Assembly (NCBI GenBank): GCA_028687545.1
Contig: JAQTZZ010000009.1
Coordinates: 62,001 to 126,000, forward strand
Direction: 5' to 3'
Source of the DNA: Candidatus Wallbacteria bacterium
GTDB lineage: Bacteria > Muiribacteriota > JAQTZZ01
Length of the DNA: 64,000 nucleotides
Made by a program: the position numbers and the translations under genes. The notes under the pieces are model-generated. The model did not search any database. It saw only the letters and a list, made by a program, of their open reading frames with translations, and was not told the DNA's origin. Below are positions 40,035-61,420 of this stretch, piece by piece. Every line of letters begins with the position of its first letter. Position 1 is the stretch's first letter.

Positions 40035-40589
40035 ATGGACGAAAAACATTCCCTTAATGTGGTTGAGAAACAGCCTGTTACACAGTCACAGCACGAAGAA
40101 AATGAAAGTCTAGCCGTATTTTGCATGACTGTTGTGATTTTTATCACTTATCCCATCTTGGTTATCGGATATTCGATCATGGCAGGCATGGATATGGATG
40201 TAGGAAACAAGGCTGTTCCAGTTCTATCTCTTCTGGCCGCATTTATACTTTGTCCTGCACTGGGATTTCTGACTGGTAAAAAAATTTCCGCTGCTGTTTG
40301 GAGCAAAAAGGCAAACATCGAGCAGGAAGATGAACACAATGGTCAAAGTTACGGTTCAATGTTTGGATTGCTGATAGGTGGCATAGTGGGCACTGCAATC
40401 TGTCCGGTACTAGTAATGGGAGTTGCAACATTAAACTACTCAATGTTGTCAGGCGCGATTGTTTTAGGTACCGGCCCTGGGCTGGTAATTGGGATGGTCA
40501 TCGGCAGTATCGTCGGACGGCTTCTGGAAAGTAAAGAACTCAAGAGAAAGCAGAAACTTATCGCAGATCATGGTGATGAAAATGGATGA
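40035..40589 (+). CDS. GTGPG-family membrane protein, member 1
   Basis: 184 residues from ATG 40035 (AGGA upstream). Charged N-terminus, then four membrane segments: VVIFITYPILVIGYSIMAG, VLSLLAAFILCPALGFLTG, a glycine-zipper helix GLLIGGIVGTAICPVLVMG, and GTGPGLVIGMVIGSIVG. The GTA.CPV and GTGPG motifs are shared with some ten other proteins in this window. No known family comes to mind. It lies inside the fatty-acid/polyketide-type block and is followed by two close relatives, with a short overlap and a one-base gap. Confidence 0.8.
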   Translation: MDEKHSLNVVEKQPVTQSQHEENESLAVFCMTVVIFITYPILVIGYSIMAGMDMDVGNKAVPVLSLLAAFILCPALGFLTGKKISAAVWSKKANIEQEDEHNGQSYGSMFGLLIGGIVGTAICPVLVMGVATLNYSMLSGAIVLGTGPGLVIGMVIGSIVGRLLESKELKRKQKLIADHGDENG

Positions 40590-41100
40590 AAACAGGCAAG
40601 AAAAAACAGTTTGTCTGAAGAAACAGCAGAACTATTGGCCAGATAATCTGCGGACAGTGGATGGAATTTCTGGGTTATGCTTGTTTTTTGGATATTTCAT
40701 TAACCAGATGTTTTACGGAAACAGACACATTATTGCACGCGCAATGTCTTTTTACATTGCATTTCTTGTCTGCCATTACATCGGCATACATGTCGTAAGA
40801 AAAATCTATTCAGCAGTAAATGACGATATTAAAAATCAAAAAAAAGGATATTCAATAATTGGTATAAAACATGGAATTGTCTTTGGAGTTCTGATTGGTG
40901 GAATAATCGGAACTGTAATAGCGCCAGTCGCATTCATCAAAATATTTTCTTTGAATTTTGACGTAGTTTGGGAAAATCTTTCATTTTGTACATTCGTTGG
41001 AACCGGTCCTGGCATGTTGATAGGGTTGATAATCGGCATTTTTGTAGGGCCAATATTAGCAAAGCAAGAAGCCATAAGATTATCGGGATCTAGGGAATAA
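40582..41100 (+). CDS. GTGPG-family membrane protein, member 2
   Basis: About 172 residues. Several in-frame starts exist (ATG 40570, 40576, 40582); I take 40582, so it overlaps member 1 by about 8 bases. Core motifs: GVLIGGIIGTVIAPVAF and FVGTGPGMLIGLIIGIFVG. The first half is an AT-rich, Lys-rich variant with two membrane segments. This and member 3 are visibly more AT-rich than the biosynthetic genes on both sides, which suggests a separate origin for this insertion. Confidence 0.75.
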   Translation: MDENRQEKTVCLKKQQNYWPDNLRTVDGISGLCLFFGYFINQMFYGNRHIIARAMSFYIAFLVCHYIGIHVVRKIYSAVNDDIKNQKKGYSIIGIKHGIVFGVLIGGIIGTVIAPVAFIKIFSLNFDVVWENLSFCTFVGTGPGMLIGLIIGIFVGPILAKQEAIRLSGSRE

Positions 41101-41101
41101 A

Positions 41102-41662
41102 ATGAGTAAAAACCAGCAAATCAGTCAATCGAAGCGGAACCATGGTGTAAATCTTGCAGTTGATTGCATGATGACAGTAATTTCGATTACGTATCCATTT
41201 TTATGTATCGGATATGTTGTTATGAAAACCTTGGATATGGATTTAGGGAACGATGCTATCCCTATCATATCAATTATAGGTGCATTAATTTTCTGCCCTA
41301 TTTTCGGATATTTTGCTGGATGGGAAATACTTATTGCAGTTAGGAATAAAATACTAAACAAGAAGAAGAGTTCCATTTTTTTCGGACTTGTAATTGGTAT
41401 GTCGCATGGCATGCTGATCGGGGGAATTGTAGGAACTGCAATCTGCCCAGTTCTTGTAATGGGAATTTTAACTCATGATATGCAGTCTATATCTGAGTCC
41501 ATAATTTTCGGAACAGGCCCTGGTATTTTACTTGGGTTGATAATCGGTAGCATAGTAGGGCCGAGACTCGCTATGGAAGAATTCGAAAGGCACGAAAAAA
41601 AAGCAAGAGTTCGCAAAACAAACACAAGACACGTTAAAAAAGAGATAAATCATGATTTATAA
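41102..41662 (+). CDS. GTGPG-family membrane protein, member 3
   Basis: 186 residues, one base after member 2. Four membrane segments. The core GMLIGGIVGTAICPVLVMG and FGTGPGILLGLIIGSIVG are nearly identical to member 1, including ITYPFLCIGYVVMKTLDMDLGN against member 1's ITYPILVIGYSIMAGMDMDVGN (shown here in part), so the two are recent duplicates. The C-terminal tail is basic (KKARVRKTNTRHVKKE) and probably cytoplasmic. It overlaps the nitroreductase start by 11 bases. Confidence 0.8.
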   Translation: MSKNQQISQSKRNHGVNLAVDCMMTVISITYPFLCIGYVVMKTLDMDLGNDAIPIISIIGALIFCPIFGYFAGWEILIAVRNKILNKKKSSIFFGLVIGMSHGMLIGGIVGTAICPVLVMGILTHDMQSISESIIFGTGPGILLGLIIGSIVGPRLAMEEFERHEKKARVRKTNTRHVKKEINHDL

Positions 41663-42272
41663 AAATGTTTTGACTGAACTTATGAAAAGTCGCAGGAGTG
41701 TGCGCAAGTTCAAGCCTGACAAGCCACCCCTTGAGCTGATCAAACTGGCTGTGGAGGCGGCAGTGGCTGCGCCGTCAAACAGCAATTCACAGCCCTGGCG
41801 GTTTATCTATCTGGAAGATGCTACGAAAATCTCTGCACTTGCGGATCTTGTGGAAGCTGCTGTAAACAAGCTGAGCCAGAAAATAGAGGACCAGGAAAAG
41901 CGAGGGGAATATTCGCGTTATGCCACCTATTTCAGCTTTTTCCGGCATGCGCCTGGATTGATCGCTGTTGCCTGCAAAGAAGCCAATTACCTGAATTATT
42001 TCCTGCCGACTGAACTGCAGCTAGTCCAGACTGTAAATCCGGAACTGTGCAGCGTTTCCGCAGCAATCCAGAATCTGCTGCTTATGCTTCACGCATCAGG
42101 TCTTGGTGCCTGCTGGATGACTGGGCCTCTGATCGCAGCCCGGGAGATATCCGGTTACATTGGGTTGAAGGAACCGTATTTTCTGGCAGCCCTGATCCCT
42201 GTGGGTTATCCTGCCGAGGAACCTGCAATACCCCGCAAAAAAGAACTGGACAAGATTTTTGTGATAAAATAA
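41652..42272 (+). CDS. Nitroreductase-family flavoprotein
   Basis: 206 residues. The FMN-binding opening SRRSVRKFKPDKPP, then AAVAAPSNSNSQPWRF and a C-terminal half with GLGACWMTGPL and AALIPVGYPAEE are those of the NAD(P)H nitroreductase family. In a biosynthetic context such enzymes often oxidise or reduce carbon-carbon or ring bonds using FMN. Placed between the GTGPG genes and the acyl carrier gene, it may be an oxidoreductase of the chain. The link is inferred from position only. Confidence 0.88.
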   Translation: MIYKNVLTELMKSRRSVRKFKPDKPPLELIKLAVEAAVAAPSNSNSQPWRFIYLEDATKISALADLVEAAVNKLSQKIEDQEKRGEYSRYATYFSFFRHAPGLIAVACKEANYLNYFLPTELQLVQTVNPELCSVSAAIQNLLLMLHASGLGACWMTGPLIAAREISGYIGLKEPYFLAALIPVGYPAEEPAIPRKKELDKIFVIK

Positions 42273-42280
42273 TGAATGAG

Positions 42281-42327
42281 GGCAAATTTTGGTGGTGTGC
42301 AGCCAGAAGTCGTGCGTAAAATTTGCC
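42281..42327 (-). repeat. Internally deleted copy of the intergenic repeat element
   Basis: Terminal inverted repeats GGCAAATTTT (42281-42290) and AAAATTTGCC (42318-42327). Bases 42282-42314, read on the minus strand, match the right arms of the copies at 46171-46335 and 49880-50041 (CTGGCTGCACACCAC, then AAAATTTGC), so this copy is in the opposite orientation and lacks the middle. Confidence 0.7.
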
Positions 42328-42338
42328 GAGTATTCATG

Positions 42339-42508
42339 CCCACAGACTGGCTCCTGCGGAGGAGTTCAAAGGCGTTGCTGAAAACCTGGCTTGTGGTAGA
42401 ATCCCACCGAAGCAGGATGCTGAGGTGCGCGCAGCCGCAGATAAGTGAAGTCCTGCAGCCGGCACTGGATGCAGGACGAAACGACCGGAGCAGGAGTCTG
42501 TCTGTGGG
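42339..42508. repeat. 170-base hairpin-rich element upstream of the ACP gene
   Basis: Ends CCCACAGACTGGCTCCTGC (42339 onward) and GCAGGAGTCTGTCTGTGGG (to 42508) form imperfect inverted repeats. Inside lies a perfect GTCCTGCA/TGCAGGAC hairpin (42450-42477) and a GTGG/CCAC hairpin near 42391-42405. No open frame of weight. It may be a small mobile element different from the GCAAATTTT family, or a structured leader RNA of the ACP operon. Confidence 0.5.
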
Positions 42509-42562
42509 AACAGCGAAATACAGGCTGATTTTCATGTAAGCAAAGCTTTCTGAGGTGAATAA

Positions 42563-42967
42563 ATGCAAGACAGCGAAATCATGGAAAAAGTCAAAGACTG
42601 CCTGGTGACTGCGCTGGGAGTTGACCGGAAAAAAATCGAGCTTGACAGTTCCCTGGTCAATGACCTGGGCGCAGAATCCCTGGACCTGCTGGACCTGGTT
42701 TTCAGGCTGGAACAGACTTTCAAAATCAGGCTTTCCCGCGGGGAAATGGAAAACAAGGCGAGAAAAACCCTGACTGACGAAGAATTCGAGCAGGACGGGA
42801 TTCTGTCTGCTGCAGCGCTGGAAAAACTCAGGGAACAGATGCCGGAAGTGGCGGCGGATAAATTCAAGCCAGGCATGAGGGCGAGCGATATTCCCACTCT
42901 CTTTACTCCCAGGACCTTTTTGCGCATTGTGGCCGAAAAACTCGAATCAGAAGATAAGGCCTCATGA
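42563..42967 (+). CDS. Acyl carrier protein with C-terminal extension
   Basis: 134 residues. The carrier helix NDLGAESLDLLDLVFRLEQ holds the phosphopantetheine serine. Normal ACPs are near 80 residues; here the fourth-helix region is interrupted by about 50 residues (EQDGILSAAALEKLREQMP, then KPGMRASDIPTLFTPRTFL). I associate this insert pattern with carriers of dedicated lipid or polyketide clusters, but cannot verify it here. It overlaps the following reductase gene by 4 bases and would carry the growing chain for the KS, KR and DH enzymes of this block. Confidence 0.88.
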   Translation: MQDSEIMEKVKDCLVTALGVDRKKIELDSSLVNDLGAESLDLLDLVFRLEQTFKIRLSRGEMENKARKTLTDEEFEQDGILSAAALEKLREQMPEVAADKFKPGMRASDIPTLFTPRTFLRIVAEKLESEDKAS

Positions 42968-43701
42968 TACTCAAGGACAAACGGGCTGTGATCACAGGCG
43001 GGACCGGAGCCCTGGGCGAACTGATCTGTGAGGTGTTTGCCCGCGAAGGCGCATCTTTTGTCTTCACCTATCATCAGAACGAAAAAAAGGCGCAGACTAT
43101 TATTGAAAACCTGAAAAAATACGATTGCAGAGTCATACCTTTCAAGCTCTCCCTGCTTGATTCTGCTGCGATCCGTGAAATGGCAGGAATGGCTGAGAAA
43201 GAGCTGGGCGGAGTCGACATACTGGTGAACAATGCAGGAGTCACCCAGGTGATGCCTTTTCCCCTGATCGAAGAGGAAGACTGGGACAGGATCATGGACG
43301 TGAATGTGAAAGGCTATTTCCTGGTCACAAAGGAAGTGGTGCGCGGCATGATCAGGCGCAAATCAGGATCGATTGTGAATATCGGTTCGCTGGCAGGCCA
43401 CAGGCTGCTGGAAGTGCCTGTGCATTACGCAGCAGCCAAGGCTGCGATCAGCGGATTCACTTTGGCCCTGTCGCGCGAACTCGCCAGATACAACATCCGG
43501 GTAAACAACATAGTGCCGGGCATGCTGGACAGCGGGATCGGCAAGAATGTGCCTGAGAAGCAGTATCAGGAATATCTGAAATACTGCATGGCAGGCAGGC
43601 CGGGTAAGCCTGCCGAGGTCGCTGAACTGGTTGCTTTCGTGGCTTCCGACAAGGGCAGCTACGTCAATTCACAGAATCTCTTTGCAGACGGAGGAATCTG
43701 A
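42964..43701 (+). CDS. Second 3-oxoacyl-ACP reductase (SDR family)
   Basis: 245 residues. Motifs TGGTGALGELI, NNAG, SIVNIGSLAGHR with the catalytic serine, and YAAAKAAISG. The C-terminus (LFADGGI) is that of FabG-type reductases. It overlaps the ACP gene by 4 bases and is followed by the second hot-dog gene, repeating the KR/DH order. It belongs with the ACP and could act on later or different chain lengths than the reductase at 39245. Confidence 0.9.
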   Translation: MILKDKRAVITGGTGALGELICEVFAREGASFVFTYHQNEKKAQTIIENLKKYDCRVIPFKLSLLDSAAIREMAGMAEKELGGVDILVNNAGVTQVMPFPLIEEEDWDRIMDVNVKGYFLVTKEVVRGMIRRKSGSIVNIGSLAGHRLLEVPVHYAAAKAAISGFTLALSRELARYNIRVNNIVPGMLDSGIGKNVPEKQYQEYLKYCMAGRPGKPAEVAELVAFVASDKGSYVNSQNLFADGGI

Positions 43702-43702
43702 A

Positions 43703-44158
43703 TTGCGCTTCCTGTTCGTTGATTCAATCACAGAAGTGAGTTCAGGCAGATCAATTCGGGGAAAAAAAGCAGTCTCCTATGAAGAATGTTTCCTTTCATC
43801 CCCTTACAGCGAAGAAGGGAATTTTCCGATTGTATTTCTGCTGGAAGCCATGGCTCAGCTTTCCTCCTGGCTGATCCAGTACACCCATGATTTCAAATTC
43901 CAGCCTTTAATCACAGGCATGGACCTGGTCAGGTTTGGCGGAGACGCCAGTTGCGGGTCTCTGCTTTCCCTGGAGGCGGAGCTGATCAATCACAATGAAG
44001 AAGGCGGAGTAGTGAGCAGCAGAGTACTCATCAATGACAGTGTAGTTGCCGAATGCAGCCGCTGCCTGTATTGCAACCTGCCCCTGCAGGAACTCAATGA
44101 CCCTGACGAAGCCAGGCAGAATTTCAGATCACTCTGTGAAAAGGCCAAATTCCTGTGA
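43703..44158 (+). CDS. Degenerate hot-dog dehydratase lacking the catalytic histidine
   Basis: 151 residues from TTG 43703 (GGAGG 8 bases upstream). It aligns without gaps to the FabZ-like protein at 36287 around the active site: CFLSSPYSEEGNFPIVFLLEAMAQ-type sequence (given in part as SSPYSEEGNFP and FLLEAMAQ). The glutamate (E48) is kept, but position 34, histidine in the intact enzyme, is proline. The DxxP-x-x-PGV loop is also lost. It is probably a structural partner or a binding subunit, as the degenerate KS is for the intact KS. The overlap of 4 bases couples it to the first radical SAM gene. Confidence 0.75.
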   Translation: MRFLFVDSITEVSSGRSIRGKKAVSYEECFLSSPYSEEGNFPIVFLLEAMAQLSSWLIQYTHDFKFQPLITGMDLVRFGGDASCGSLLSLEAELINHNEEGGVVSSRVLINDSVVAECSRCLYCNLPLQELNDPDEARQNFRSLCEKAKFL

Positions 44159-45588
44159 AAAAAGACGGAAGGGCACTCAGATCATACAGATTTCTGGACC
44201 TGACTCAGGGTATGTGCCGCAAATGCCGGAAAATAGTGGACAGCCAGATCATTGTCAGGGACGGAAGCGTATATCAAAGGAATATCTGCCCTGAGCACGG
44301 AGAAAGCGAGTCCATGCTTGCCAGAGACGCAGGATGGTATCTGAAAGTGATAGAATCCCGGCAGGTCACAGACAGACCGAAAGCAGTGGCAAGAAAAATC
44401 GACAAAGTCTGCCCCTTTGATTGCGGGCTCTGCGCCTGGCATGAAAAAGGCCTGAATCTTCCCGTTTTTTCCATCACCAATGCCTGCAACCTGGACTGCC
44501 CCATCTGTTTCACCTATAACCGCAATGACATAAAGTATTTCATGAGCAAAGAAGAGTTCGGGAAGATTATCGAAAATATCGTTTTGGCGCAAGGCAAAGT
44601 GGATCTGATCAACATTACCGGGGGCGAGCCTACCCTGCATCCGCAGCTTTTCGATCTGCTCGACCTGTGCAGAAGGCCTGAGATCGGCAGGGTGACCCTG
44701 AATTCCAATGGCCTGACCCTGGCCCAGGACGAAAGCCTGGTGCAGAAACTATCGGAATACGGTATTTACGTGATACTCTCCTTCAATTCATTCAATCACG
44801 AAACTACTGCGAAAATACACGGCCAGGACATACTTGATCAGAAGATGAAAGCCTTGGAAAACCTGGAAAAACACGGAGTCAACACCACTCTTCTCAATGT
44901 CTCAATCAAGAATCTGAATGACAGAGAAATCGGGGATGTCCTGAAATTCTGCCTGAGCCACGATTTTATCCGCAATCTCTCCATCCAGAATATGACCTAT
45001 ACAGGCTTCGGTGGAAAGGACTTCGGGCCGAGGGAGCATCTGCCGATTGACGAAGTGATAGGAAACATCTGCTCCGCAATGCCGGATGTGTTTACTCCAG
45101 ATGATTTCACGCCCCTGCCGGGTTCGCATCCTCTGTGCTATTCAGTCTGCTATTTCTTCCATGGCCAGGCCGGCACTTTTCCGCTGAAGCGGTTGTTTTC
45201 TAATGAGGAATACCGCAGACTGCTGGGCAGCGGCTACCTGATCAGGCCTGACGAATCGTTCCAGGAACTGCTGAACTCCAAGATCGGGGAAATTTATGCC
45301 AACAGAGACACCTTTCCTGAAGCAGACAAGATCCTGAAAATACTCAGGGACATGATTTTACGACTGTTTCCGGAAAAGAGGCTGTCCGAATTCGAGCGCC
45401 AGAAAGAAGCTGAGAAATGCATCAAAAACATCTACATCCATTCGCACATGGATGAGGACAATTTCGACCTCTCCAGGATAGTGCGCTGCGGCGACCTGGT
45501 GCCTGACACTGACGGCTCTTTCACTCCTGCCTGCAGTTACAATCTTTTTTACCGCATGCATGACGAGCGGTTCTGGAAAAAGGACTGA
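44155..45588 (+). CDS. Tes/MJ0619-like radical SAM enzyme 1
   Basis: 477 residues. N-terminal CRKCRK and CPEHGES, then CPFDCGLCAWH, then the radical SAM motif NACNLDCPICF (C111, C115, C118) and INITGGEPTLHPQL. A C-terminal cysteine set (RCGDLV, PACSYNLF) follows. The order CxxC / CPxHGE / CPxDCGLC / CNLxCPICF is that of the archaeal tetraether synthase (Tes, joining isoprenoid chains) and MJ0619 family, some members of which are named dihydrohydroxymethylpterin dimethyltransferases. Its place next to ACP, KR and DH genes favours a carbon-carbon bond or alkyl modification of an acyl chain. The reaction itself is inference. Confidence 0.8.
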   Translation: MKKDGRALRSYRFLDLTQGMCRKCRKIVDSQIIVRDGSVYQRNICPEHGESESMLARDAGWYLKVIESRQVTDRPKAVARKIDKVCPFDCGLCAWHEKGLNLPVFSITNACNLDCPICFTYNRNDIKYFMSKEEFGKIIENIVLAQGKVDLINITGGEPTLHPQLFDLLDLCRRPEIGRVTLNSNGLTLAQDESLVQKLSEYGIYVILSFNSFNHETTAKIHGQDILDQKMKALENLEKHGVNTTLLNVSIKNLNDREIGDVLKFCLSHDFIRNLSIQNMTYTGFGGKDFGPREHLPIDEVIGNICSAMPDVFTPDDFTPLPGSHPLCYSVCYFFHGQAGTFPLKRLFSNEEYRRLLGSGYLIRPDESFQELLNSKIGEIYANRDTFPEADKILKILRDMILRLFPEKRLSEFERQKEAEKCIKNIYIHSHMDEDNFDLSRIVRCGDLVPDTDGSFTPACSYNLFYRMHDERFWKKD

Positions 45589-45591
45589 AAA

Positions 45592-46161
45592 ATGGACGAT
45601 TATCTGAAAACTTCAGGGAAAAAAATCAGGGATTTTCTGAAAAGCGATGACCCTTTTGTAAAGATCAAGGGGCCTGCGGCCAATTTCCGCGAAAACAGAT
45701 TCTGCTGCCTGTGCTGGCCGACTCCTGCGAAGCGGGTGCGGCTGCTGAAAAATTATTTTCTCAGCATGCTGGCCTTTGTGGCGCCCACATCTGATCTCAA
45801 AACCTTTATCTTCAGGCTGATGGGCGTAAAGATCGGGAAAAACGTGGAATTCGCGGTCTGGGTTTCGATTGAGCCGTCCTTTCCAGAACTGGTCAGCATT
45901 GATGACAATGCCCTGATCGGCCTGGGTGTGCAGATCGCCACTCACGAGATGACACACAGCAGTCTGCGCATCGGCAGGGTCAAAATCGGGAAGAACGCGG
46001 TGATCGGCGGAGGCACAATCATCCGCGGGGGAGTGACTGTCGGCGACAATGCGGTGACCGGGATTGGCGCTGTGGTGTTGAACGACGTAGCACCCGGAAC
46101 AACGGTAGTCGGTAATCCGGCCAGGCCGCTGGCAGAGGTGCTGGCAGAAAATGATGACTGA
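45592..46161 (+). CDS. Left-handed beta-helix (hexapeptide) acyltransferase
   Basis: 189 residues. Hexapeptide repeats: VKIGKNVEF, VSIDDNALIGLGVQI, VKIGKNAVIGGGTIIRGGVTVGDNAVTGIGAVV (in parts) and the end VAPGTTVVGNPARP. The histidine of THEMTHSS is likely catalytic. It resembles galactoside/maltose O-acetyltransferases and other LbH acyltransferases. The N-terminal 80 residues, with CCLCWP and a hydrophobic stretch, are not typical. In this block it could transfer an acyl group from ACP or CoA onto a head group. It follows the radical SAM gene by 3 bases. Confidence 0.8.
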   Translation: MDDYLKTSGKKIRDFLKSDDPFVKIKGPAANFRENRFCCLCWPTPAKRVRLLKNYFLSMLAFVAPTSDLKTFIFRLMGVKIGKNVEFAVWVSIEPSFPELVSIDDNALIGLGVQIATHEMTHSSLRIGRVKIGKNAVIGGGTIIRGGVTVGDNAVTGIGAVVLNDVAPGTTVVGNPARPLAEVLAENDD

Positions 46162-46170
46162 CGTTAGAAT

Positions 46171-46335
46171 GGCAAATTTTCCTTATCAATCCGCAGTATC
46201 TTTTGTGGGGTGGCCGGGTGTCCGAAGCTGTAACAAAACCCGGAGGGTTTTTCAACAGCTTCAGATGCCAGGACAGGACCCGCCACAAAGCAATGATCTG
46301 GCACAACTTTTGGCTGCACATCACTAAAATTTGCC
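46171..46335 (+). repeat. Hairpin-rich intergenic repeat element, copy B
   Basis: Termini GGCAAATTTT (46171) and AAAATTTGCC (46335). Outer arm blocks are GTGGGGTGGCC near 46204 and CAGGACAGGACCCGCCAC near 46272, then CTTTTGGCTGCACATCAC. Inside, GAAGCTGT...ACAGCTTC encloses AACCC/GGGTT. The outer blocks recur in copy C (49880-50041); the inner hairpin differs. No coding capacity. Confidence 0.8.
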
Positions 46336-46362
46336 GAATTAGGTGATTGCAGGTGAGGACTC

Positions 46363-47742
46363 ATGGACTACGAATACTTTAAAATCACGCGCAGCCTCTG
46401 CCCTGAATGCGGGAAAATCGTTCAGGCTAAAATCGTGTTTGAAAACGACTGCGTATATCTTCTCAAGCATTGCCCTGTACATGGCGAATCCCTGGCCCTG
46501 ATCTACAGGGACAGGGAAACCTATCTCAGGAATCTGCGCATCAACAAGCCGGCCCTCTATCCGCTGGAATTCGAAAAAAAATATCAGGGCTGCCCGGACA
46601 GTTGCGGGCTCTGCAACGAGCATCAGCAGCACACCTGCCTGCCGATCATTGAGATCACTGATCACTGCAATTTCAAATGCCCGATCTGCATAGCAGACAA
46701 CCGCAGCTCATTCTTTATGGAACCAGCTGAATTCAAGAAAATAATCGAGCGGCTGGTCAGGACTGAAGGAAATCTCGAGCTGATCAACCTGAGCGGAGGC
46801 GAGCCGACTCTGCATCCTCAGCTTACTGAGCTGCTTGACATTGCCCTGCGCCAGGAAATCCTGGGTGTATCCATCAGCACGAACGGCAGGCTGTTTTTAA
46901 AAAAGCCGGAGCTGCTCGCTGAGCTGTTGCGCCGGAATATTTTCATTTCCCTGCAGTTCGACGGGTTTTCGGACGCTTATTATCAGGCTTTACGCGGTGA
47001 AAACCTGCTCGACGAAAAGCTGAAGATCCTGGAAATGCTGGAAAAGAGGAACGCCCCTTCCTCGCTGGTGATGACAGTGGCCAGAAATGCCAATCTCAAA
47101 GGTATCTCTCAAGTGCTGGAATTCTTTCTGCAAAAGGACTTTCTGCGCTCGATCATGTTCCAGCCCCTGTCTTTCGCGAATCCGGGAGTGAAATACGATT
47201 TTCAGGATGTGACCACAATCCAGGAAGTGATCGCGGAAATTGCCGCAGGTTCCAGGGGAATGATCAGGGAGGAAGACATAGTCTCTCTGCCCTGCTCGCA
47301 TCCTGCCTGCTTTTCACTCACATATCTGCTGAAGCTCGGCCAGGGCGAATTCATACCTCTCAACCGCCTGGCCAAGGCAGACGATTATCTGGACCTGATC
47401 AAGAACAGGGCAATGGCCGGATTCGAACTTGAGACATACGAAAAGATCAGGGAATGCATTTATGATCTCTGGTCTTCTTCAGGAATTCAGCCTGAGTCGC
47501 AGAAAATTCTTGCCACGATCAAAAAAATCATCTGCGAAGTCGACGGGGAATCTTCCTGCGAGGCAGGCAGGCTTTTTTCCATTGCAGGCAGCCATGTGAA
47601 ATCCATTTTCATCCATCATTTCATGGACCGCCATAATTTCGACCTCAGCAGAGCCATGAAATGCTGCACCCAGTATCAGATAAACGGGTCAGGCTCATAT
47701 CCCTGCTGCGTTTTCAACAATCTCCAAAGGAGAGGCACATGA
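46363..47742 (+). CDS. Tes/MJ0619-like radical SAM enzyme 2
   Basis: 459 residues. Same layout as the enzyme at 44155: CPECGK, CPVHGES, CPDSCGLCNEH, DHCNFKCPICI (C102, C106, C109), LINLSGGEPTLHPQL, and a C-terminal set AMKCCTQYQI and YPCCVF. The two are paralogues, diverged well beyond a recent duplication. The cysteine-rich layout points to more than one iron-sulfur cluster, as shown for Tes. It overlaps the desulfurase-fusion gene by 4 bases, which is suggestive: that protein could supply sulfur for cluster assembly or for a sulfur insertion. Confidence 0.8.
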   Translation: MDYEYFKITRSLCPECGKIVQAKIVFENDCVYLLKHCPVHGESLALIYRDRETYLRNLRINKPALYPLEFEKKYQGCPDSCGLCNEHQQHTCLPIIEITDHCNFKCPICIADNRSSFFMEPAEFKKIIERLVRTEGNLELINLSGGEPTLHPQLTELLDIALRQEILGVSISTNGRLFLKKPELLAELLRRNIFISLQFDGFSDAYYQALRGENLLDEKLKILEMLEKRNAPSSLVMTVARNANLKGISQVLEFFLQKDFLRSIMFQPLSFANPGVKYDFQDVTTIQEVIAEIAAGSRGMIREEDIVSLPCSHPACFSLTYLLKLGQGEFIPLNRLAKADDYLDLIKNRAMAGFELETYEKIRECIYDLWSSSGIQPESQKILATIKKIICEVDGESSCEAGRLFSIAGSHVKSIFIHHFMDRHNFDLSRAMKCCTQYQINGSGSYPCCVFNNLQRRGT

Positions 47743-49874
47743 TTTTCAGGCGCAAAGTGTATCTCGACTACAATGCCACCACTCCGCTCGATCCGCAGGT
47801 GAAAAAGGCGGTCAGGGAAAGCCTTGATTGCTTCGGCAATCCCTCCTCTCTGCACGCCACAGGCAGGATGAGCAGGAGCCTGATGGAAGAGGCCAGGGTC
47901 CATGTCTCGCGCCTGATCAATGCTTCTCCTGAGCAGGTGCTGTTCACTTCCGGCGGCTCAGAAGCCAACAACGCGGTCATCAAAGGGATTGCAGCTGCCA
48001 TGCCCGGGAAAATCATTACCAGTCAATTCGAACATGCCTCGATCTTCGACACCTGCAAATTTCTGGAGCGCAGGGGCACTGAAGTAGTGTTCCTGGCGCC
48101 GGACAGGGATGGAATCATCAGGCCTGAGGCGCTTGAGGCAGTAATTACGAATGACACTGCCCTGGTTTCGGTCATGACGGTGAACAATGAGATCGGCACG
48201 ATCCAGGATATAGCCAGGCTAGTGGAAATAGCGCACAGTCACGGAGCACTGTTCCACACAGATGCAGTACAAGCTGTGGGGAAGATCCAGGTGGATGTCC
48301 GGAAAACCGGCGTGGATTTCCTTACTTTCTCAGCCCATAAGATACATGGACCCAAGGGGTGCGGAGCCCTGTACATCAGGAACCGCAGGCAGTTCACCCC
48401 TCTCCTGCACGGCGGGCATCAGGAAAGTCTGCTGCGCGGTGGGACAGAGAATTTCAGCGGGATCATCGGATTCGGGGAAGCCTGCCGCATTGTCTCTGAA
48501 AACAGTCTGGCTGACATTCCCAGGCAGAAGGCACTCAGCGCATACTTTCTTAGAAACATCCGCAAATTCCATCCTGCCGCCACCCTGAACGGATCAGCAA
48601 GGGAAAGAGTTCCTGGAACTATGAACATCCGGTTTCCCGGCTTCGACAACCGCAAACTGCTGTCCTTACTGGATTATTATGGAATCTCCGTCTCCATGGG
48701 ATCTGCCTGCTCAGAGGGCAAGAAGGACATATCACACGTTCTCACAGCCATCGGGCTAAGCGAAGATGAAGCCAGGAGCTCACTAAGATTCAGCCTCGGG
48801 AAATACACAACTCCGGATGAGCTGAAATACTGCCTGAAGCGCTTGAAAAAGATCCTGCAGGAGGACAACACTGAAACCACTCTGTTAAGTCCTGTTGCGC
48901 TTGATGAAACCATACTGATCAACAGCGATTATTACATTGTGGACCTGAGATACGGTTTCCAGCGGGCTCTCAGCGGCATGCTGCCAATGGCGGACAAGGC
49001 AGACATTTTCAAACTGGAAGAGGAGTCTGCCCGCTTTCCAAGAGACAGGAAAATAGTGCTGCTCTGCGAATACGGAGCAGACGCCTACAGGAGCAGCTTT
49101 CTGCTCAGAAAACTGGGATTTTCAGAAGTTGTGGTGCTGGCAGGCGGGTTTGCCTCCTGGATCGCAGCGCATCCTTTTTTGTATAAAAAATACGTCATGG
49201 AGGGCCGGACAATGAAGCTTGTGAACCGCAGGCACGAAGATCAGGCCAGATATTATGACATAGGCATGAAGCTGCACTGGCTGTGGAAATACAAAAAGTT
49301 CAGACAAGCGCTGCTCGATAATCTGCCAGGGCTCTCAGGCGGGACACTGCTTGACTATGGCTGCGGCACAGGGCTGATGCTGGAGTATATCCTTGCAAAT
49401 TCGGATTTCAGCGGCACATACATAGGCTGCGACCCAGGCTTCGGCATGCTGGAAGTGGCTGTGGGCAAGAAGATCAAGCACAAACTCATGGCTTTTGTGC
49501 AGGTGGCTGAGACGCCCGAACTGCCGGTCCGTGATTCCTCTATTGACGCGATAGTGCTGAGCCTGGTGACGCATCAGATCTCAAGGGAAGGCAAGCTCAA
49601 GCTGTTCAATGAATTCTTCCGCGTGCTGAAACCAGGAGGAATGGTCAGCATTGCGGAGTTTGGGAAGCCGGTGGGCATTTCCGGGAAAATAAGTGCCTGG
49701 TACATACGCAAACTCTGGGGCAATATCCTGACAGGAGTGGAATTCAATTCCAGGGACAATTTCGCGGGAAAAATCCCGGTTTTCCTGGAAAAAAGCGGAT
49801 TCAGAGATGTCAGGATCACCGGCAGTTTCAGCGGGATGATCGACATCATCGCCGCCCGCAAGCCAGCAGTCTAG
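47739..49874 (+). CDS. Three-domain fusion: cysteine desulfurase - rhodanese - methyltransferase
   Basis: 711 residues from ATG 47739 (AAAGGAGAGG upstream). Domain 1 (about 1-375) is a NifS/IscS desulfurase: YLDYNATTPLDP, TSGGSEANNAV, PLP lysine in FSAHKIHGPKG, and active cysteine in GSACSEG. Domain 2 (about 385-490) is rhodanese-like, with the persulfide cysteine in LLCEYGADAYRSSFLL. Domain 3 (about 500-711) is a SAM methyltransferase with LLDYGCGTGLMLEYI and VLKPGGMVSIAEFG. The frame is continuous and I see no frameshift. The order suggests sulfur mobilisation, relay, and methylation in a single polypeptide. It overlaps the radical SAM gene upstream. Confidence 0.88.
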   Translation: MIFRRKVYLDYNATTPLDPQVKKAVRESLDCFGNPSSLHATGRMSRSLMEEARVHVSRLINASPEQVLFTSGGSEANNAVIKGIAAAMPGKIITSQFEHASIFDTCKFLERRGTEVVFLAPDRDGIIRPEALEAVITNDTALVSVMTVNNEIGTIQDIARLVEIAHSHGALFHTDAVQAVGKIQVDVRKTGVDFLTFSAHKIHGPKGCGALYIRNRRQFTPLLHGGHQESLLRGGTENFSGIIGFGEACRIVSENSLADIPRQKALSAYFLRNIRKFHPAATLNGSARERVPGTMNIRFPGFDNRKLLSLLDYYGISVSMGSACSEGKKDISHVLTAIGLSEDEARSSLRFSLGKYTTPDELKYCLKRLKKILQEDNTETTLLSPVALDETILINSDYYIVDLRYGFQRALSGMLPMADKADIFKLEEESARFPRDRKIVLLCEYGADAYRSSFLLRKLGFSEVVVLAGGFASWIAAHPFLYKKYVMEGRTMKLVNRRHEDQARYYDIGMKLHWLWKYKKFRQALLDNLPGLSGGTLLDYGCGTGLMLEYILANSDFSGTYIGCDPGFGMLEVAVGKKIKHKLMAFVQVAETPELPVRDSSIDAIVLSLVTHQISREGKLKLFNEFFRVLKPGGMVSIAEFGKPVGISGKISAWYIRKLWGNILTGVEFNSRDNFAGKIPVFLEKSGFRDVRITGSFSGMIDIIAARKPAV

Positions 49875-49879
49875 CTTCA

Positions 49880-50041: not shown

Positions 50042-50062
50042 TTAATAAATTTAAGTTTCTAA

Positions 50063-50509: not shown

Positions 50510-50564
50510 CGTTTCACACTCCATTAGATATTGTTGATCTAAAATTAACAAAAAAATTCCTATT

Positions 50565-50593
50565 TTGCAAAATCGCGGATAAAATATTATGTA
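50565..50593 (+). promoter_or_regulatory. Duplicated promoter region, copy 1
   Basis: TTGCAA (50565-50570), 17-base spacer with GGATAAAATA, TATGTA (50588-50593). About 50 bases around it match the region at 53120-53180 (AAAATTAACAAAAA, TTTTG.AAAATC, GGATAAAATA, TATGTAGA). It precedes member 5 by 43 bases. Confidence 0.5.
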
Positions 50594-50635
50594 GAGTTAC
50601 AGTGGAATCTGTGAACAAGTTTAAAAGGCAGGAAC

Positions 50636-53079: not shown

Positions 53080-53148
53080 TCCGGCCTTTTCATTACAACC
53101 AGGTTCAATCAATTCACACACTTCAAAATTAACAAAAATGTTCCGGTT

Positions 53149-53177
53149 TTGTAAAATCAGGGATAAAATAATATGTA
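53149..53177 (+). promoter_or_regulatory. Duplicated promoter region, copy 2
   Basis: TTGTAA (53149-53154), 17-base spacer containing GGATAAAATA, TATGTA (53172-53177), in the divergent gap between the genes starting at 53079 (minus) and 53215 (plus). Closely similar to 50565-50593 and its flanks. Confidence 0.5.
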
Positions 53178-53214
53178 GATAACTGATAAGTTTTGGAAGA
53201 TAAAAGGAGACCTC

Positions 53215-54168
53215 TTGGATTCGGGAAAAATCATCCGTTCATTCCATATCAAGGCAGGTTTATACTCTCTTGCCTGGTTTTATCCGCTGCAGACTTTTGT
53301 TTATTATTTAACATTTGGGCGATCCTCAGGGCTTTCATGCCCTACATATTATTTCGTAATCTACTATTCAGTGATTTTTTTGACCAGCTGGTACACCAGC
53401 ACTCTCTTAACCAGAAACATACCAAAGTTTACTAATTTCAAAGATTTCGAGGACAAAGGCAAATCTCTGGGAAGTGTTTATGGCTTTGTTGCATTTTTCT
53501 TATCACTAATTGGCACGGATTTATTTTCCAATAGACTTTGGAGTTTACAAAGTGGGATGTACAAACATGTTCGCTGGTACGAAGATTTCGATACAATGAT
53601 TATCATTTTCGGCCTGTTCCTCAGTATTTTGGGCGGTCTGCTTGGGCGGTGCCACGGACAGGTGTTAGCAGGTGATCTTTATCGTATTCTTAACCTAAAG
53701 AAAGAAGATGGCACTATACAGAGGAACAATAGTTTTCTGACTATTCGCATGAAGGCAGTGAAAATCTGCGCTCCGATCTTCCTGTTAATCTTCATGATCC
53801 CATTCGTCTTGTTTGGAAACAAACAGCTGGAATCTTTTGATAAAATACTATCGCTTTTGATGCATGTCTTTTTTTCCTGGATATGTCCTGTAGTCTTGTC
53901 CTACCTTGCCGCCATGAAAATAGAAAATACTCTGATACACGCGATCGATGGAAAAAAAGATACCGCTGGCATTGGCTATAAAATCGGCGCGCAGATGGGA
54001 GCTATAATCGGATTCATGATCGGATTCGCGATTTTCCCTCAGATCGATATGATGATAGTTGCTGGTGCAGGACCAGGAGTAATCATAGGAACACTGATCG
54101 GTCTACCAATCGGAAATCTCATTGCGGATTCTTATGTGAAAATCTTGATAGAGCCAATCGAAGAGTAA
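53215..54168 (+). CDS. GTGPG-family membrane protein, duplicated-core variant
   Basis: 317 residues from TTG 53215 (AAAGGAGA 5-6 bases upstream). Two halves: the first (LTSWYTSTLLTRNIPKF, GSVYGFVAFFLSLIG, LFLSILGGLLG) is a worn copy of the core without the GPG motif. The second (AAMKIENTLIHAIDGKKD, GAIIGFMIGFAIFPQI, VAGAGPGVIIGTLIGLPIG) is well kept, with AGAGPG. It lacks a zinc ribbon. It has about eight membrane segments in total. Confidence 0.78.
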   Translation: MDSGKIIRSFHIKAGLYSLAWFYPLQTFVYYLTFGRSSGLSCPTYYFVIYYSVIFLTSWYTSTLLTRNIPKFTNFKDFEDKGKSLGSVYGFVAFFLSLIGTDLFSNRLWSLQSGMYKHVRWYEDFDTMIIIFGLFLSILGGLLGRCHGQVLAGDLYRILNLKKEDGTIQRNNSFLTIRMKAVKICAPIFLLIFMIPFVLFGNKQLESFDKILSLLMHVFFSWICPVVLSYLAAMKIENTLIHAIDGKKDTAGIGYKIGAQMGAIIGFMIGFAIFPQIDMMIVAGAGPGVIIGTLIGLPIGNLIADSYVKILIEPIEE

Positions 54169-55303: not shown

Positions 55304-55323
55304 TTTTGACAAAAGGCTGGAAC

Positions 55324-56786: not shown

Positions 56787-56821
56787 ATCAAGGACGAAAA
56801 GAAGACTCCTGAGGAGGAACC

Positions 56822-57032
56822 ATGGAGTGGCGGCGCCAGATTGGGAGGGCTGAGAAAGCCCATGATAAGCCGGGTGTCCCGGAAAACATTGCAGTCAGGA
56901 CCGGAGGATTACCGCTCGCTGTTTTAGGTGCCCTGATTGCCGGCTGCTGGGCCTGGAGTGTTCATCGGCATGATCGCCGGCGCAGCTGGTGGGAACAAGC
57001 TGAAAAAAAAGTTCCTGAATAGAGCTTCCTGA
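56822..57032 (+). pseudogene. Deletion remnant of a GTGPG-family gene
   Basis: From ATG 56822 the frame reads MEWRRQIGRAEKAH..., then LPLAVLGALIAGCWAW, matching the first membrane segment of the gene at 54183 (LPLPIAGAFFAGCWSW). At the same bases a shift of frame gives AAGPGVFIGMIAGAAGGNKLKKKF, the GTGPG helix and C-terminus, ending TGA at 57030-57032. The middle two segments are missing. This is a head-to-tail deletion scar with the junction inside GCTGCTGGGCCTGG. Confidence 0.75.
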
Positions 57033-57071
57033 CCGCGATATGTTGTTGATTTCCCTGACCTAATTAAGTAT

Positions 57072-57097: not shown

Positions 57098-57115
57098 AAG
57101 ATTAATGGAGCGAAC

Positions 57116-58258
57116 ATGTATATTCCCCAACAACAATTGTCAAATCTCCAAAAGCTGATATCTCCTCAGAAAGCGATTCTGATATACGGACCGCGAAGAT
57201 GCGGAAAAACCACGTTAATCACTGAGTTTCTGAAGGGAGTTGATGAAAAATACTTGTTCGTCAATGGCGACGACATCTATGTACGGGAATTTTTAAGCAG
57301 CCAGTCCATTGAAAAACTGAAATCATTCGTGGGGGACAACAAGCTTCTGGCAATAGACGAAGCACAGAGGATCAAAGGTATTGGCCTTAATCTGAAAATC
57401 ATTCTGGACCATATCCCGGATCTCAGAGTAATCGCCAGCGGGTCATCGTCTTTTGATCTCTGCCGTGAAGCGGGAGAGCCCTTGACCGGAAGAAAAATCA
57501 CCTTGCAGCTGTTTCCGCTGGCCCAGTTGGAAATCGGCAGACTGGAGACTAAGGCTGAAAGTGCGGCTCTTCTTGAGGACAGGCTTGTTTTCGGTTCATA
57601 TCCTGAGATCGTACTGGCAAAAAGTCATGAACACAAAACAAGGCTTCTGAAGGAACTGATCGGATCATACCTGCTCAAAGACATTCTGGAACTGGATGGG
57701 ATCAAAAATTCCGATAAAATACTCCGGCTGCTCCAGTTGATCGTTTTTCAGATAGGCCGGGAAGTTTCCCTGTCTGAGATCGGCAGGCAGCTTTCGCTGA
57801 GCAAGAACACTGTGGACAGATACATGGAGCTGCTGGAGCGGACTTTTGTGATTTTCAGGATTACCGGATTCAGCCGAAACCTGCGCAAGGAAATCACTAA
57901 GAGCCACAGATTTTATTTTCTGGATAACGGGGTCAGGAATGCGCTGATCAACAATTTCAATCCCTTGAATTTCCGCGATGATACGGGGATGCTATGGGAA
58001 AACTATATTGTGACCGAGAGGATGAAGCGGCGCGAATATACCGGAATAATGGCCAACAGCTATTTCTGGCGCACTTATGAACAGCACGAAATTGATCTGG
58101 TCGAGGAATCCGGGGGAATGCTTCATGCCTATGAAATAAAGTGGTCAGGCGGAAAAAAGGGAAACTCAGTCGCCTGGCTGAGTGCTTATCCCGACTCTGA
58201 ATATCAGATTGTCAGCCGGGAAAATTATCTGAGCTTCATCACTCAAAAAGACCCCTGA
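57116..58258 (+). CDS. AAA ATPase with DUF4143 domain
   Basis: 380 residues. Walker A is YGPRRCGKTTLI, Walker B LLAIDEAQR, sensor region RVIASGSSSFDL. The middle has a winged-helix-like segment (SLSEIGRQLSLSKNTVDRYMELLE) and the C-terminal DUF4143 nuclease-like domain ends with FYFLDNGVRNALI, LWENYIVTERMKR and AYEIKW. The E-x-K at the end resembles a PD-(D/E)XK core. These genes are scattered in many copies in bacteria and archaea and are thought to be mobile or defence-linked; the role is not established. It sits between two remnant GTGPG fragments, as if inserted there. Confidence 0.88.
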   Translation: MYIPQQQLSNLQKLISPQKAILIYGPRRCGKTTLITEFLKGVDEKYLFVNGDDIYVREFLSSQSIEKLKSFVGDNKLLAIDEAQRIKGIGLNLKIILDHIPDLRVIASGSSSFDLCREAGEPLTGRKITLQLFPLAQLEIGRLETKAESAALLEDRLVFGSYPEIVLAKSHEHKTRLLKELIGSYLLKDILELDGIKNSDKILRLLQLIVFQIGREVSLSEIGRQLSLSKNTVDRYMELLERTFVIFRITGFSRNLRKEITKSHRFYFLDNGVRNALINNFNPLNFRDDTGMLWENYIVTERMKRREYTGIMANSYFWRTYEQHEIDLVEESGGMLHAYEIKWSGGKKGNSVAWLSAYPDSEYQIVSRENYLSFITQKDP

Positions 58259-58267
58259 GGAGGCGGC

Positions 58268-58348
58268 ATGGAATGGAGAAAACAGAGCGTTTCTGACAGC
58301 ACCGGTTCTGTAAAAACCCTGTCCAGCTGCAGGAAAGCCTATCAATGA
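58268..58348 (+). pseudogene. Possible short remnant related to 56822
   Basis: ATGGAATGGAGAAAACAG (58268) follows GAGGAGG, much as ATGGAGTGGCGGCGCCAG (56822) does. The 26-codon frame (MEWRKQSVSDSTGS...) has no further family features. It may be a second decayed head, lying on the other side of the ATPase gene. Confidence 0.35.
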
Positions 58349-58358
58349 GAATTTCTTC

Positions 58359-59273
58359 ATGACAGACCAGGGTAAAAAAATCGGCTTTGCTGATTGCGGA
58401 GTATACAACGGGGTGATTGCCGGACAGCTTCAGGAACTGGGCTGGGAAGTAGCCTGGCCCCCAAAAATTACAAGTAAAACCATCACTCTCGGTTCCGCTC
58501 ATTCGCCTGAGATGATCTGCTTTCCCTTCAAGGTGACACTGGGGACCATCATCGAGCAGATCCAGTCAGGAGTCAAAAACATCCTGGTCTACAACTCCCA
58601 GGGACATTGCAGATTCAGCCATTTCCATAATCTATACAGTCACACCTTGAAAGAGCTTGGGCTGGAATGCAATCTGCTGCTGATCGACCGCAGAAAACCG
58701 CTCTCCTCGATCAGGAATGCGGCGAAGAACAATCCAGGAAATCTGAAGATCGCGGCCATTCTTTTCAAGGCCTGGAGAAGGCTGCTCAGGGCAGAGCGGA
58801 AGCTGGAAATGAAGTATTCCCAAGGCCGGAAAAAGGTGATTCTGGTCGGTGAGGCTTACTCCACAATCGTGCCTGAACTGAATCATCACCTGCGGGAAAG
58901 ACTTCTGAATTGCGGGATTGCCACTTCAGCGCCAGCCCTTTTTTCGCACTATTTCCTGAAAAAACACCATCTCCAGCCTAGAACAGCCGAAGACGCCGAG
59001 GCACATGAGCTTCTCAACGCTCCCATCGCAGGCTGCGCCTTTGAAAGCGTCAGGAATACTATCGCTGCCGCAGGGCAGGGATTCCACGGCATAATCCATC
59101 TCTATCCCTTGACCTGCATGCCTGAAACTACAGTCAGCCCTTTGGTGGATTCCATAGCCAGAGCGCGGAAACTGCCGCTGCTGAAATTCGAGATCGATGA
59201 GAATCTATCGCCTCTCAATGTCGAAACCAGGATCGAAACCTTTGCAGAGATTATTAACAACAGAAGATCATGA
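58359..59273 (+). CDS. Acyl-CoA dehydratase activase-related protein (CoA-protein activase, HgdB-like)
   Basis: 304 residues. The opening IGFADCGVYNGVIAGQLQELG, then SPEMICFPFKVTLGTIIEQI, VYNSQGHCRFSHF and GCAFESVRNTIAA match the group of 2-hydroxyacyl-CoA dehydratase related proteins (DUF2229-like) found next to BadF/HgdC ATPases. Cysteines in CFPF, GHCRF, GCAFE and LTCMPE may hold an iron-sulfur cluster. It overlaps the ATPase gene by 4 bases, which completes a two-component pair. The real dehydratase subunits (HgdA/B) are not in the window. Confidence 0.78.
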   Translation: MTDQGKKIGFADCGVYNGVIAGQLQELGWEVAWPPKITSKTITLGSAHSPEMICFPFKVTLGTIIEQIQSGVKNILVYNSQGHCRFSHFHNLYSHTLKELGLECNLLLIDRRKPLSSIRNAAKNNPGNLKIAAILFKAWRRLLRAERKLEMKYSQGRKKVILVGEAYSTIVPELNHHLRERLLNCGIATSAPALFSHYFLKKHHLQPRTAEDAEAHELLNAPIAGCAFESVRNTIAAAGQGFHGIIHLYPLTCMPETTVSPLVDSIARARKLPLLKFEIDENLSPLNVETRIETFAEIINNRRS

Positions 59274-60217
59274 ATGAACAAAAAGAGCTGTTTTTAGGCT
59301 GTGATTTCGGCAGCAGCGCCATCAAAGTTGTTCTGCTGGACAATGACAATAATCTGGCAGGATCACATTATGAGCCCAACACAGGGATACTGGAATCGAC
59401 TTTCAGAGCGCTGGATTCATTCAGATCATTTGAAATCAAAGCTCTGGGCATTACAGGGAGCGGCAGGCATTTCGGGGAAGCCCTTCTCGGTGCAGATTCC
59501 CTTGTCACAGAGATCATCGCCCAGGCAAAAGCGGCAGTGTCTTTGCACCCTGAGGTCAGTACAATTCTGGAGATCGGCGGCGAAGACAGCAAGATCATTT
59601 TCATAGAGAACGGGCGGGTCTGTGATTTTGCCATGAACACGCTCTGCGGAGGAGGCACAGGCAGCATGCTGGAAAACATCGCCCACAGGCTGGGGATAGA
59701 CATCAGGGACTATGGCGAACTGGCCCTGCAAAGCAGAAATCCGGTCAGCCTCTCCGGAAAATGCGGGGTTTTTGCCCAGTCTTCACTTGTGTCAAAGCTG
59801 AATCAGGGCTTTGACAAATCAGACATAGCCATGGGCGCAGCCAGAGCTGTAGTGAATAATTTTTTCTCGATCCTGGTGAGAAACAGGAAGATCAGGAAGG
59901 AAATCCTGTTTCAAGGGGCTACGGCACTCAACAAAGCACTGAAAACCGCATTCCAGGAAAAGCTTCAGGCTGATGTAATCATACCGCAGCATCCTCATCT
60001 GATGGGTGCGATCGGCGCAGCCATGCTGGCCCGGGAGCATGTTCCAGGCAGAACTGTTTTCAAGGGCTGGACAAAGCTCAGTCCGGACAAAGTCGCACTG
60101 AAACACTCAAATCTGTCCGGATGCGCCAACAGCTGCGAAATTGTGGAGATAGTCAACGGCACCGACGGTTCAGTCAGCCGCTTCGGGCAGCGCTGCGGGA
60201 AATGCGGCGCAGATTAA
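59270..60217 (+). CDS. BadF/BadG/HgdC-type ATPase (acyl-CoA dehydratase activase)
   Basis: 315 residues of the ASKHA fold. Phosphate-binding motif LGCDFGSSAIKVVLLD, then EIGGEDSKIIF, and the [4Fe-4S] region NTLCGGGTGSMLENIAHRLG, with a second cysteine in GKCGVFAQSSLVSKLNQG. The archerase family uses ATP to push one electron into a dehydratase or a benzoyl-CoA reductase. Both cluster cysteines are present, so activity is expected. C-terminal CGKCGAD adds a possible knuckle. It is adjacent to the HgdB-like partner. Confidence 0.9.
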   Translation: MNEQKELFLGCDFGSSAIKVVLLDNDNNLAGSHYEPNTGILESTFRALDSFRSFEIKALGITGSGRHFGEALLGADSLVTEIIAQAKAAVSLHPEVSTILEIGGEDSKIIFIENGRVCDFAMNTLCGGGTGSMLENIAHRLGIDIRDYGELALQSRNPVSLSGKCGVFAQSSLVSKLNQGFDKSDIAMGAARAVVNNFFSILVRNRKIRKEILFQGATALNKALKTAFQEKLQADVIIPQHPHLMGAIGAAMLAREHVPGRTVFKGWTKLSPDKVALKHSNLSGCANSCEIVEIVNGTDGSVSRFGQRCGKCGAD

Positions 60218-60268
60218 ATATTATGGCAAATCAGTGATAGAATGGTGTAAATCTTAAAGGAGCTGACG

Positions 60269-61420
60269 ATGCGCTGGAAATGCCCGTGCGGCAGGGAAAA
60301 CCTTGATACGAAAAAATGCCTGGACTGCGGAGCTGAGTATTCAGCCGAGTACAATCTCAAATCGCAGGGATTCGATCAGGAAAAATACCAGAAAGCAAGG
60401 CAGGAGGAAGGAAACCGCAATTTGGAAAGGCTCCCCTCCCGATTGGCTGTAAAGGCTGCATTGTGGGCATGGGGATTTCTGCTGTTCGGATCACTGATCA
60501 TCCAATTTAATACGACTGAACTCCAGTGTTCATGGATGTCGGTGATTTTTTCGCCGTTCTTCCTGGAAGACCACAACCTGTATGTTCCTTTCAAATATAT
60601 TTTACTGGCGGTACTTGCTGTTGCGAGCAGTCCCGCCATAGGCTGGTACACTGGAAAATCAATCGGAAAATTAATCTTAAGTGGGAAAAGAAAAGGTGCT
60701 GTCCTTAGTTCGATAGGCGGTGGACTGATTGGCATTATCACCAGCAATGCGATCGACCCTGCGATACTGGACTCTTCCATAAAACACATTGCTCCAGCTT
60801 TGATTATCGTCAGCGGACCTGGACTTATACTGGGATTAATTATCGGATGGAACATCGGGGGAAGAATCGACGAGACCCTTGCATTGAAATCATACTCCCC
60901 TGCCCATGGGAAAACAAAAACTGAAAAGGAACAGGCTGAACTGAATATCAGCTGGCTGCCCGCTCTGATTGCTATAAATGCCGGAGCCGGATCCTGGATT
61001 GCCATCATGCTGGGCGAGTCTTTTTTTGTGACTCTTCGCGGCAGTCATGATTTTACGACTTTTCATGACAGCCAGATTTATCCCTGGTTTGAAGGATTAG
61101 CATTTCTAAGCGGCCCTGTAATTGGATACTGCACCGGTCTTGTCATCAGGGAATTCATCTTAAAGGGAGAGAAAGCAGGGGCTGTTTGCGGAGTGTTCGC
61201 CGGTGCTCTGATTGGCTTGATAACAGGAACTGCGATCTATCCTGTTATCTTTATAAATCCGGGGCTAGCCGGTTTTCTCGGAACCGGCCCGGGATGCGTC
61301 GCAGGAATAGTAATCGGAAAGATTACTGGCAACTATATTGACAAAAAATACTCGCAGGTTGTCAGCATGTATAAGATAAAACGCAGTTCTACCGGGAGTG
61401 ATGTTGACAGAAAAACTTAA
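60269..61420 (+). CDS. GTGPG-family membrane protein with zinc ribbon and tandem core
   Basis: 383 residues, ATG with AAAGGAG upstream. Ribbon MRWKCPCGRENLDTKKCLDC, then two complete cores. Core 1: SSPAIGWYTGKSIGKLILSG, GLIGIITSNAIDPAILD, VSGPGLILGLIIGWNIGG (SGPG). Core 2: SGPVIGYCTGLVIREFILKG, GALIGLITGTAIYPVIF, FLGTGPGCVAGIVIGKITG. The first core has lost the TGT and GTGPG consensus, the second is faithful. About eight membrane segments. It overlaps the following radical SAM gene by 20 bases. Confidence 0.85.
   Translation: MRWKCPCGRENLDTKKCLDCGAEYSAEYNLKSQGFDQEKYQKARQEEGNRNLERLPSRLAVKAALWAWGFLLFGSLIIQFNTTELQCSWMSVIFSPFFLEDHNLYVPFKYILLAVLAVASSPAIGWYTGKSIGKLILSGKRKGAVLSSIGGGLIGIITSNAIDPAILDSSIKHIAPALIIVSGPGLILGLIIGWNIGGRIDETLALKSYSPAHGKTKTEKEQAELNISWLPALIAINAGAGSWIAIMLGESFFVTLRGSHDFTTFHDSQIYPWFEGLAFLSGPVIGYCTGLVIREFILKGEKAGAVCGVFAGALIGLITGTAIYPVIFINPGLAGFLGTGPGCVAGIVIGKITGNYIDKKYSQVVSMYKIKRSSTGSDVDRKT

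Follow-up and report, generated by a model that had tools for sequence, protein, structure and literature searches.

In anammox bacteria, gene clusters that combine a type II fatty acid synthase with radical SAM enzymes have been proposed to be responsible for ladderane lipids (Rattray 2009, PMC2649909; Javidpour 2016, PMC4790861). The anammox cluster includes a membrane protein of unknown function, kuste3337, as well as phytoene-desaturase-like and phenylacetyl-CoA-ligase genes (PMC4790861). A cluster of related content is present in the 64,000-nucleotide stretch of Candidatus Wallbacteria DNA analyzed here, referred to as the window. It has ketosynthase paralogues, an ACP, FabG, a dehydratase and paired radical SAM enzymes in common with the anammox clusters. 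However, phytoene-desaturase-like and phenylacetyl-CoA-ligase genes are not among the genes annotated here, and a nitroreductase, a hexapeptide protein and NifS set the host cluster apart. The likeness is one of gene content only, in which the clusters resemble each other in kind. There is also a likeness to the tetraether lipid synthase Tes (NF045702; PMC9433317), which concerns the radical SAM proteins neighbouring the membrane protein family described below, and not the family itself.

Orphan families as such are common. What is new is the setting of this one, inside a cluster that is conserved elsewhere without it. An orphan family wedged in a widespread lipid-type cluster provides a handle on the product of the cluster and on the handling of that product at the membrane.

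The host cluster and its two insertion sites

The features of the region are collected in Table 1. The gene order KS-KS-KR-nitroreductase-ACP-KR-DH-rSAM-hexapeptide-rSAM-NifS (36748-49874 and 61398-62717) is kept across many phyla (loci L066-L127), and the cluster was found in most of the 64 loci from many phyla. The dehydratase is FabA-like. Both radical SAM proteins carry an N-terminal Zn_ribbon_HMPTM domain (PF23545), and the NCBIfam entries nearest to them, below the cut-off, are tetraether lipid synthase and TrsS. For each of the two, NF045702 ranks first or second among the NCBIfam matches, and because their scores of 211 and 229 bits fall short of the cut-off (450), we consider the pair to be relatives of Tes and not Tes itself. 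The cluster probably makes an unusual membrane lipid. Within the phylum, radical SAM 1 is present in 17 of the 40 genomes, and 16 genomes other than the source contain the cluster without the membrane family. As many other phyla also have the cluster without it, the family is not needed for the core chemistry.

Two side observations concern the cluster itself. First, a single frame (47661-49874) encodes a fusion of a cysteine desulfurase, a rhodanese-like and a methyltransferase domain; the methyltransferase is separate in some relatives. Second, pieces of a dispersed intergenic repeat that are 83-96% identical are present in three spacers of the cluster (49875-50062, 42273-42562 and 46162-46362), and this repeat carries the inverted repeat GTGGCAACTTTTT at 49925 and 49964.

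Table 1. Coordinates of the family genes, the host cluster and associated features (positions in the window).
Feature	Coordinates	Strand	Description	Evidence
Host cluster, first part	36748..39994	+	two ketosynthases, ketoreductase 1	Pfam
A1	40035..40589	+	four-helix core, without ribbon	held-out profile E 2.4e-24
A2	40582..41100	+	four-helix core, without ribbon; overlaps A1	held-out profile E 1.2e-14
A3	41102..41662	+	four-helix core, without ribbon; overlaps nitroreductase gene	held-out profile E 1e-21
Host cluster, second part	41652..49874	+	nitroreductase, ACP, ketoreductase 2, dehydratase, radical SAM 1, hexapeptide protein, radical SAM 2, NifS-rhodanese-methyltransferase	Pfam, NCBIfam; order conserved across phyla
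M	50066..50509	-	separate four-helix cluster companion, single copy	orthologues E 1.1e-30
55-bp element, copy 1	50541..50595	+	intergenic, upstream of B1, promoter-like	
B1	50636..51757	+	core and second multi-helix membrane domain (about 51113-51754)	held-out profile E 3.8e-39
B2	51841..53079	-	ribbon, core and second membrane domain	held-out profile E 8.8e-20
55-bp element, copy 2	53125..53179	+	upstream of B3	
B3	53215..54168	+	core in the C-terminal half; the N-terminal half may be a second core that has decayed	C-half E 4e-16, N-half E 0.62
C1	54183..54731	+	ribbon and core	held-out profile E 4.3e-37; four-helix model, pLDDT 82
C2	54731..55303	+	ribbon and core	held-out profile E 7.5e-41
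C3	55324..55785	+	core only	held-out profile E 2.6e-31
C4	55992..56786	+	ribbon, core, one further helix	held-out profile E 1.3e-27
Family-gene remnant	about 56822..57022	+	decayed copy	matches at 56937-57017 and in another frame
Non-family genes, second insert	57116..60217	+	DUF4143 ATPase, DUF2229 protein, BadF-type activase	Pfam
D	60269..61420	+	ribbon and two tandem cores	held-out profile E 5.3e-14 (N core), 2.1e-21 (C core)
Host cluster, B12-binding radical SAM protein	61398..62717	+	adjoins methyltransferase gene in relatives (L060-L062)	

The original prediction had left the family genes unconnected to their neighbours. A check of these neighbours places them inside the conserved lipid-type cluster, where they take up two sites that have no such insert in relatives, the flanking genes adjoining there. 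At the first site, A1-A3 separate KR1 from the nitroreductase gene. The corresponding gap in relatives is 23 bp (L052) or 9 bp (L066), and at most about 300 bp where these genes are adjacent. At the second site, the methyltransferase and B12 radical SAM genes, which touch each other in several Riflebacteria (L060-L062), are separated by 11.5 kb containing M, B1-C4, the DUF4143 ATPase gene, the DUF2229/BadF genes and D. The spacing is tight: A1 starts 40 bp after KR1 and D 51 bp after BadF, and A3 and D overlap the nitroreductase gene and the B12 radical SAM gene, respectively. Because A1-A3 and D overlap or abut cluster genes in this way, they are likely co-transcribed with them.

This arrangement can also be explained by assuming that the family consists of passenger genes, acquired by horizontal transfer and multiplied by local duplication, which have no part in the chemistry and for which the cluster is a tolerated landing site. 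In line with this explanation, the cluster has all its parts where the family is absent and is interrupted twice here, and unrelated genes (DUF4143 ATPase, DUF2229/BadF) came with the second insert. However, we recognized neither a transposase or integrase nor flanking repeats, and the tight overlaps with cluster genes and the restriction of all copies to this part of the genome argue against it.

Members of the family and the companion gene M

About eleven genes had been predicted to share a four-helix membrane core. We found this core in 11 intact genes in three blocks, A1-A3 (40035-41662), B1-B3 plus C1-C4 (50636-56786) and D (60269-61420), with the predicted motifs, including TGTxxxPV and GTGPG, being conserved columns of the family alignment. 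Homology was assessed by dropping each subgroup from the profile and then seeking it with the remainder, using reversed sequences as controls. Each subgroup was recovered with E-values of 1e-14 to 1e-41, and reversed copies scored 4.5 bits at most. All-against-all BLASTP also connects the members (A1-A3, 1e-51; C1-C2, 5e-35; A3-C3, 3e-13). The remnant downstream of C4 consists of an N-terminal piece, an internal deletion and a TM4 piece that is out of frame.

Versions with and without an N-terminal ribbon, and with an extra membrane domain, were anticipated and are indeed present. C1, C2, C4, B2 and D have a conserved paired-cysteine N-terminus (CxC or CxxC, followed by CxxC), which appears zinc-ribbon-like, with putative zinc binding. 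The second membrane domain is present in B1 and B2 only, without another copy in the genome. The anticipated tandem cores are clear in D, both cores of which match the profile, while for B3 the score of the N-terminal half (E 0.62) is only suggestive of a second core.

M, the gene preceding B1, resembles the family in that it encodes a small protein with four helices and glycine-rich TM3 and TM4, and in that it is linked to the cluster: orthologues are located beside the cluster at nine other loci (L074, L080, L091, L095, L099, L101, L107, L108 and L109). It differs in being present in a single copy and in having neither GTGPG nor a ribbon. No Pfam family matched M above the cut-off, and no PDB entry matched its predicted structure. 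Its adjacency, a profile E-value of 0.0035 and an hhalign probability of 84-88% make it tempting to regard M as the founder of the family, but this is unproven. With the family profile M scores 14.3 bits in the forward orientation and 19.4 bits when reversed; because the reversed sequence outscores the real one, M was not counted as a member. The comparison in the opposite direction gave a weak forward-only signal of 17.4 bits. Locus L109, which is labelled Kuenenia, was not taken as evidence on anammox bacteria, since it may be a misbinned contig.

Known families and predicted fold

Screening of Pfam, NCBIfam, PHROGs, PADLOC and PDB sequences did not result in a match for the family; PDB sequence matches at E 0.15-0.8 were rejected as not significant, and a literature search on the GTGPG motif found nothing. 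The view that the family was an unrecognized one thus stands, as no characterized family matched and no Pfam or NCBIfam profile above its cut-off placed the core in a known transporter or channel family. It had been proposed to check membership in the Gly-zipper families of Pfam, with which the family has glycine-periodic helices in common, but it scores only 10-16 bits with these and stays below threshold (PF13488: best score 16 bits, cut-off 25; PF13441: best score 12.2 bits, cut-off 28.9).

AlphaFold was run on C1 with an alignment consisting of paralogues only (12 sequences). The model has four helices (39-62, 67-96, 102-121 and 131-162) and, at the N-terminus, a small unit of strands. Foldseek searches with this 12-paralogue model at a threshold of E <= 0.001 did not detect a similar solved fold (best E 0.53 in PDB), nor, at E 0.001, a similar viral model (best E 0.26). 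The TM2-TM3 loops and the C-tails are rich in K/R, from which we infer that both termini of the core are cytosolic; TGTxxxPV would then close TM3, and GTGPG would open TM4, at the outer side. The proposed cytosolic location of the ribbon fits this distribution, and zinc binding by the ribbon is to be taken as putative.

The predicted meeting of the TM3 and TM4 motifs at the outer face might also be found in a transporter or channel for small molecules that has the four-helix core as its unit and would dimerize as the tandem in D suggests; the second membrane domain that is fused to the core of B1 and B2 could be accommodated as well. However, no transporter or channel family of Pfam or NCBIfam scored above its cut-off, no PDB sequence matched, and the best PDB structure was as distant as mentioned above. 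We regard such a function as improbable.

Distribution, age and possible role of the family

In the source genome (4.54 Mb, 97% complete), the searches located every recognizable member inside the window, in or beside one cluster. Neither the remaining 39 genomes of the phylum (40 including the source) nor the 50 genomes that were reached via host-cluster loci yielded the family. In a sample of about 980 genomes from three further phyla there were no more than three matches, all weak (L130-L132; 22.8-28.5 bits), which were dismissed because on inspection they are generic glycine-rich membrane proteins. Nothing was found in viral contigs screened with strict patterns or among phage and plasmid proteins, and a viral, phage or plasmid origin was rejected on these grounds. 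Scanning genome contigs with strict patterns did not detect the family either, which is weak evidence of absence because of the strictness of the patterns. Thus, within the genomes searched, the family is restricted to this locus; the profile searches reach close and moderate relatives, and very distant homologues could escape them.

An Aquicultor gene next to M (L108, 14130-14678) resembles the family in layout, with a ribbon and a membrane helix. Its score of 19.7 bits is within the noise of the profile, which gives 22.7 bits for reversed M, and we treat this gene as a lead only and not as an independent member.

The paralogues are about 20-50% identical, their synonymous sites are saturated and there is no near-identical pair. 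The saturation indicates that the expansion is old, and the persistence of 11 intact frames with conserved motifs despite it indicates that the genes are under constraint. These features do not support the fast turnover supposed by the original prediction, which had likened the genes to surface, immunity or membrane-stress systems. A membrane-stress, immunity or pore-forming system that is independent of the cluster might have glycine-rich helices, diverse paralogues and versions with and without a ribbon, as observed here. However, besides the old age of the copies, none of which is recently diversified, no anti-phage defence family of PADLOC and no PHROGs family matched, and no toxin, nuclease or immunity partner is located beside the genes, which lie in a lipid-type cluster instead. 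We regard such a system as improbable too.

The GC3 values of the family genes (0.33-0.50) are lower than those of the cluster genes (0.51-0.65), which suggests that the family genes have a separate origin. This difference, together with the one decayed copy, would again be in agreement with the passenger explanation introduced above. On the other hand, the intact frames and motifs after such an old divergence argue against passengers, and we consider this explanation unlikely.

Two copies of a 55-bp element that are 85% identical precede B1 and B3, and there is no third copy in the genome. The element holds a sigma-70-like site (TTAACA-17-(T/C)AAAAT); such sites are no commoner in the region than in shuffled sequences. 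That this non-coding stretch is conserved, while the coding sequences have diverged to saturation, points to shared regulation or to a later copying event.

Our preferred reading, which we put forward tentatively and as somewhat short of an even chance, is that the family members are lineage-specific membrane accessory proteins for the lipid product of the cluster, with the ribbon serving as a cytosolic docking module. We favour it because all members in the genome are in or beside one cluster, with A1-A3 and D overlapping or abutting its genes; because this cluster is lipid-like, with ketosynthases, an ACP, reductases, a dehydratase and a radical SAM pair nearest to tetraether lipid synthase; because unrelated small membrane proteins (M and others) accompany the cluster in other phyla; and because of the four-helix model with its K/R distribution, the 11 constrained frames and the 55-bp element shared by B1 and B3. 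The presence of the cluster without the family, in 16 other genomes of the phylum and in many other phyla, speaks against an accessory role, as do the lower GC3, with the separate origin that it suggests, and the fold search, which points to no lipid protein.

In this reading, each core would span the inner membrane with its four helices and have both termini on the cytosolic side, and TM3 and TM4 would pack via their glycine repeats, so that TGTxxxPV and GTGPG meet at the outer face. As homo- or hetero-oligomers, the proteins would most likely accommodate, sort or flip the unusual acyl product of the cluster, and the ribbon may be a docking site at the membrane for soluble enzymes of the cluster (ACP, ketosynthase or radical SAM proteins). 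The diversity of the paralogues could then reflect several partners or lipid variants. A bolder version, to which we give little credence, is that of a modular machinery in which ribbon-docked, oligomer-forming four-helix units build or organize a membrane consisting of an undescribed cluster lipid, and which evolved in one lineage.

The cluster is kept in many phyla, where other membrane proteins accompany it, M and a methyltransferase-like protein among them, which can be tested likewise. Apart from M, two types of companion, neither of which was seen in this window, were observed at loci L074, L077, L079, L083, L086, L090, L096, L108, L110 and L117: a conserved protein of multiple helices, which contains the motif KPxYxLL and sometimes has a rhodanese-like N-terminus, and a methyltransferase-like membrane protein (GRSFGILIA..RHPMY).
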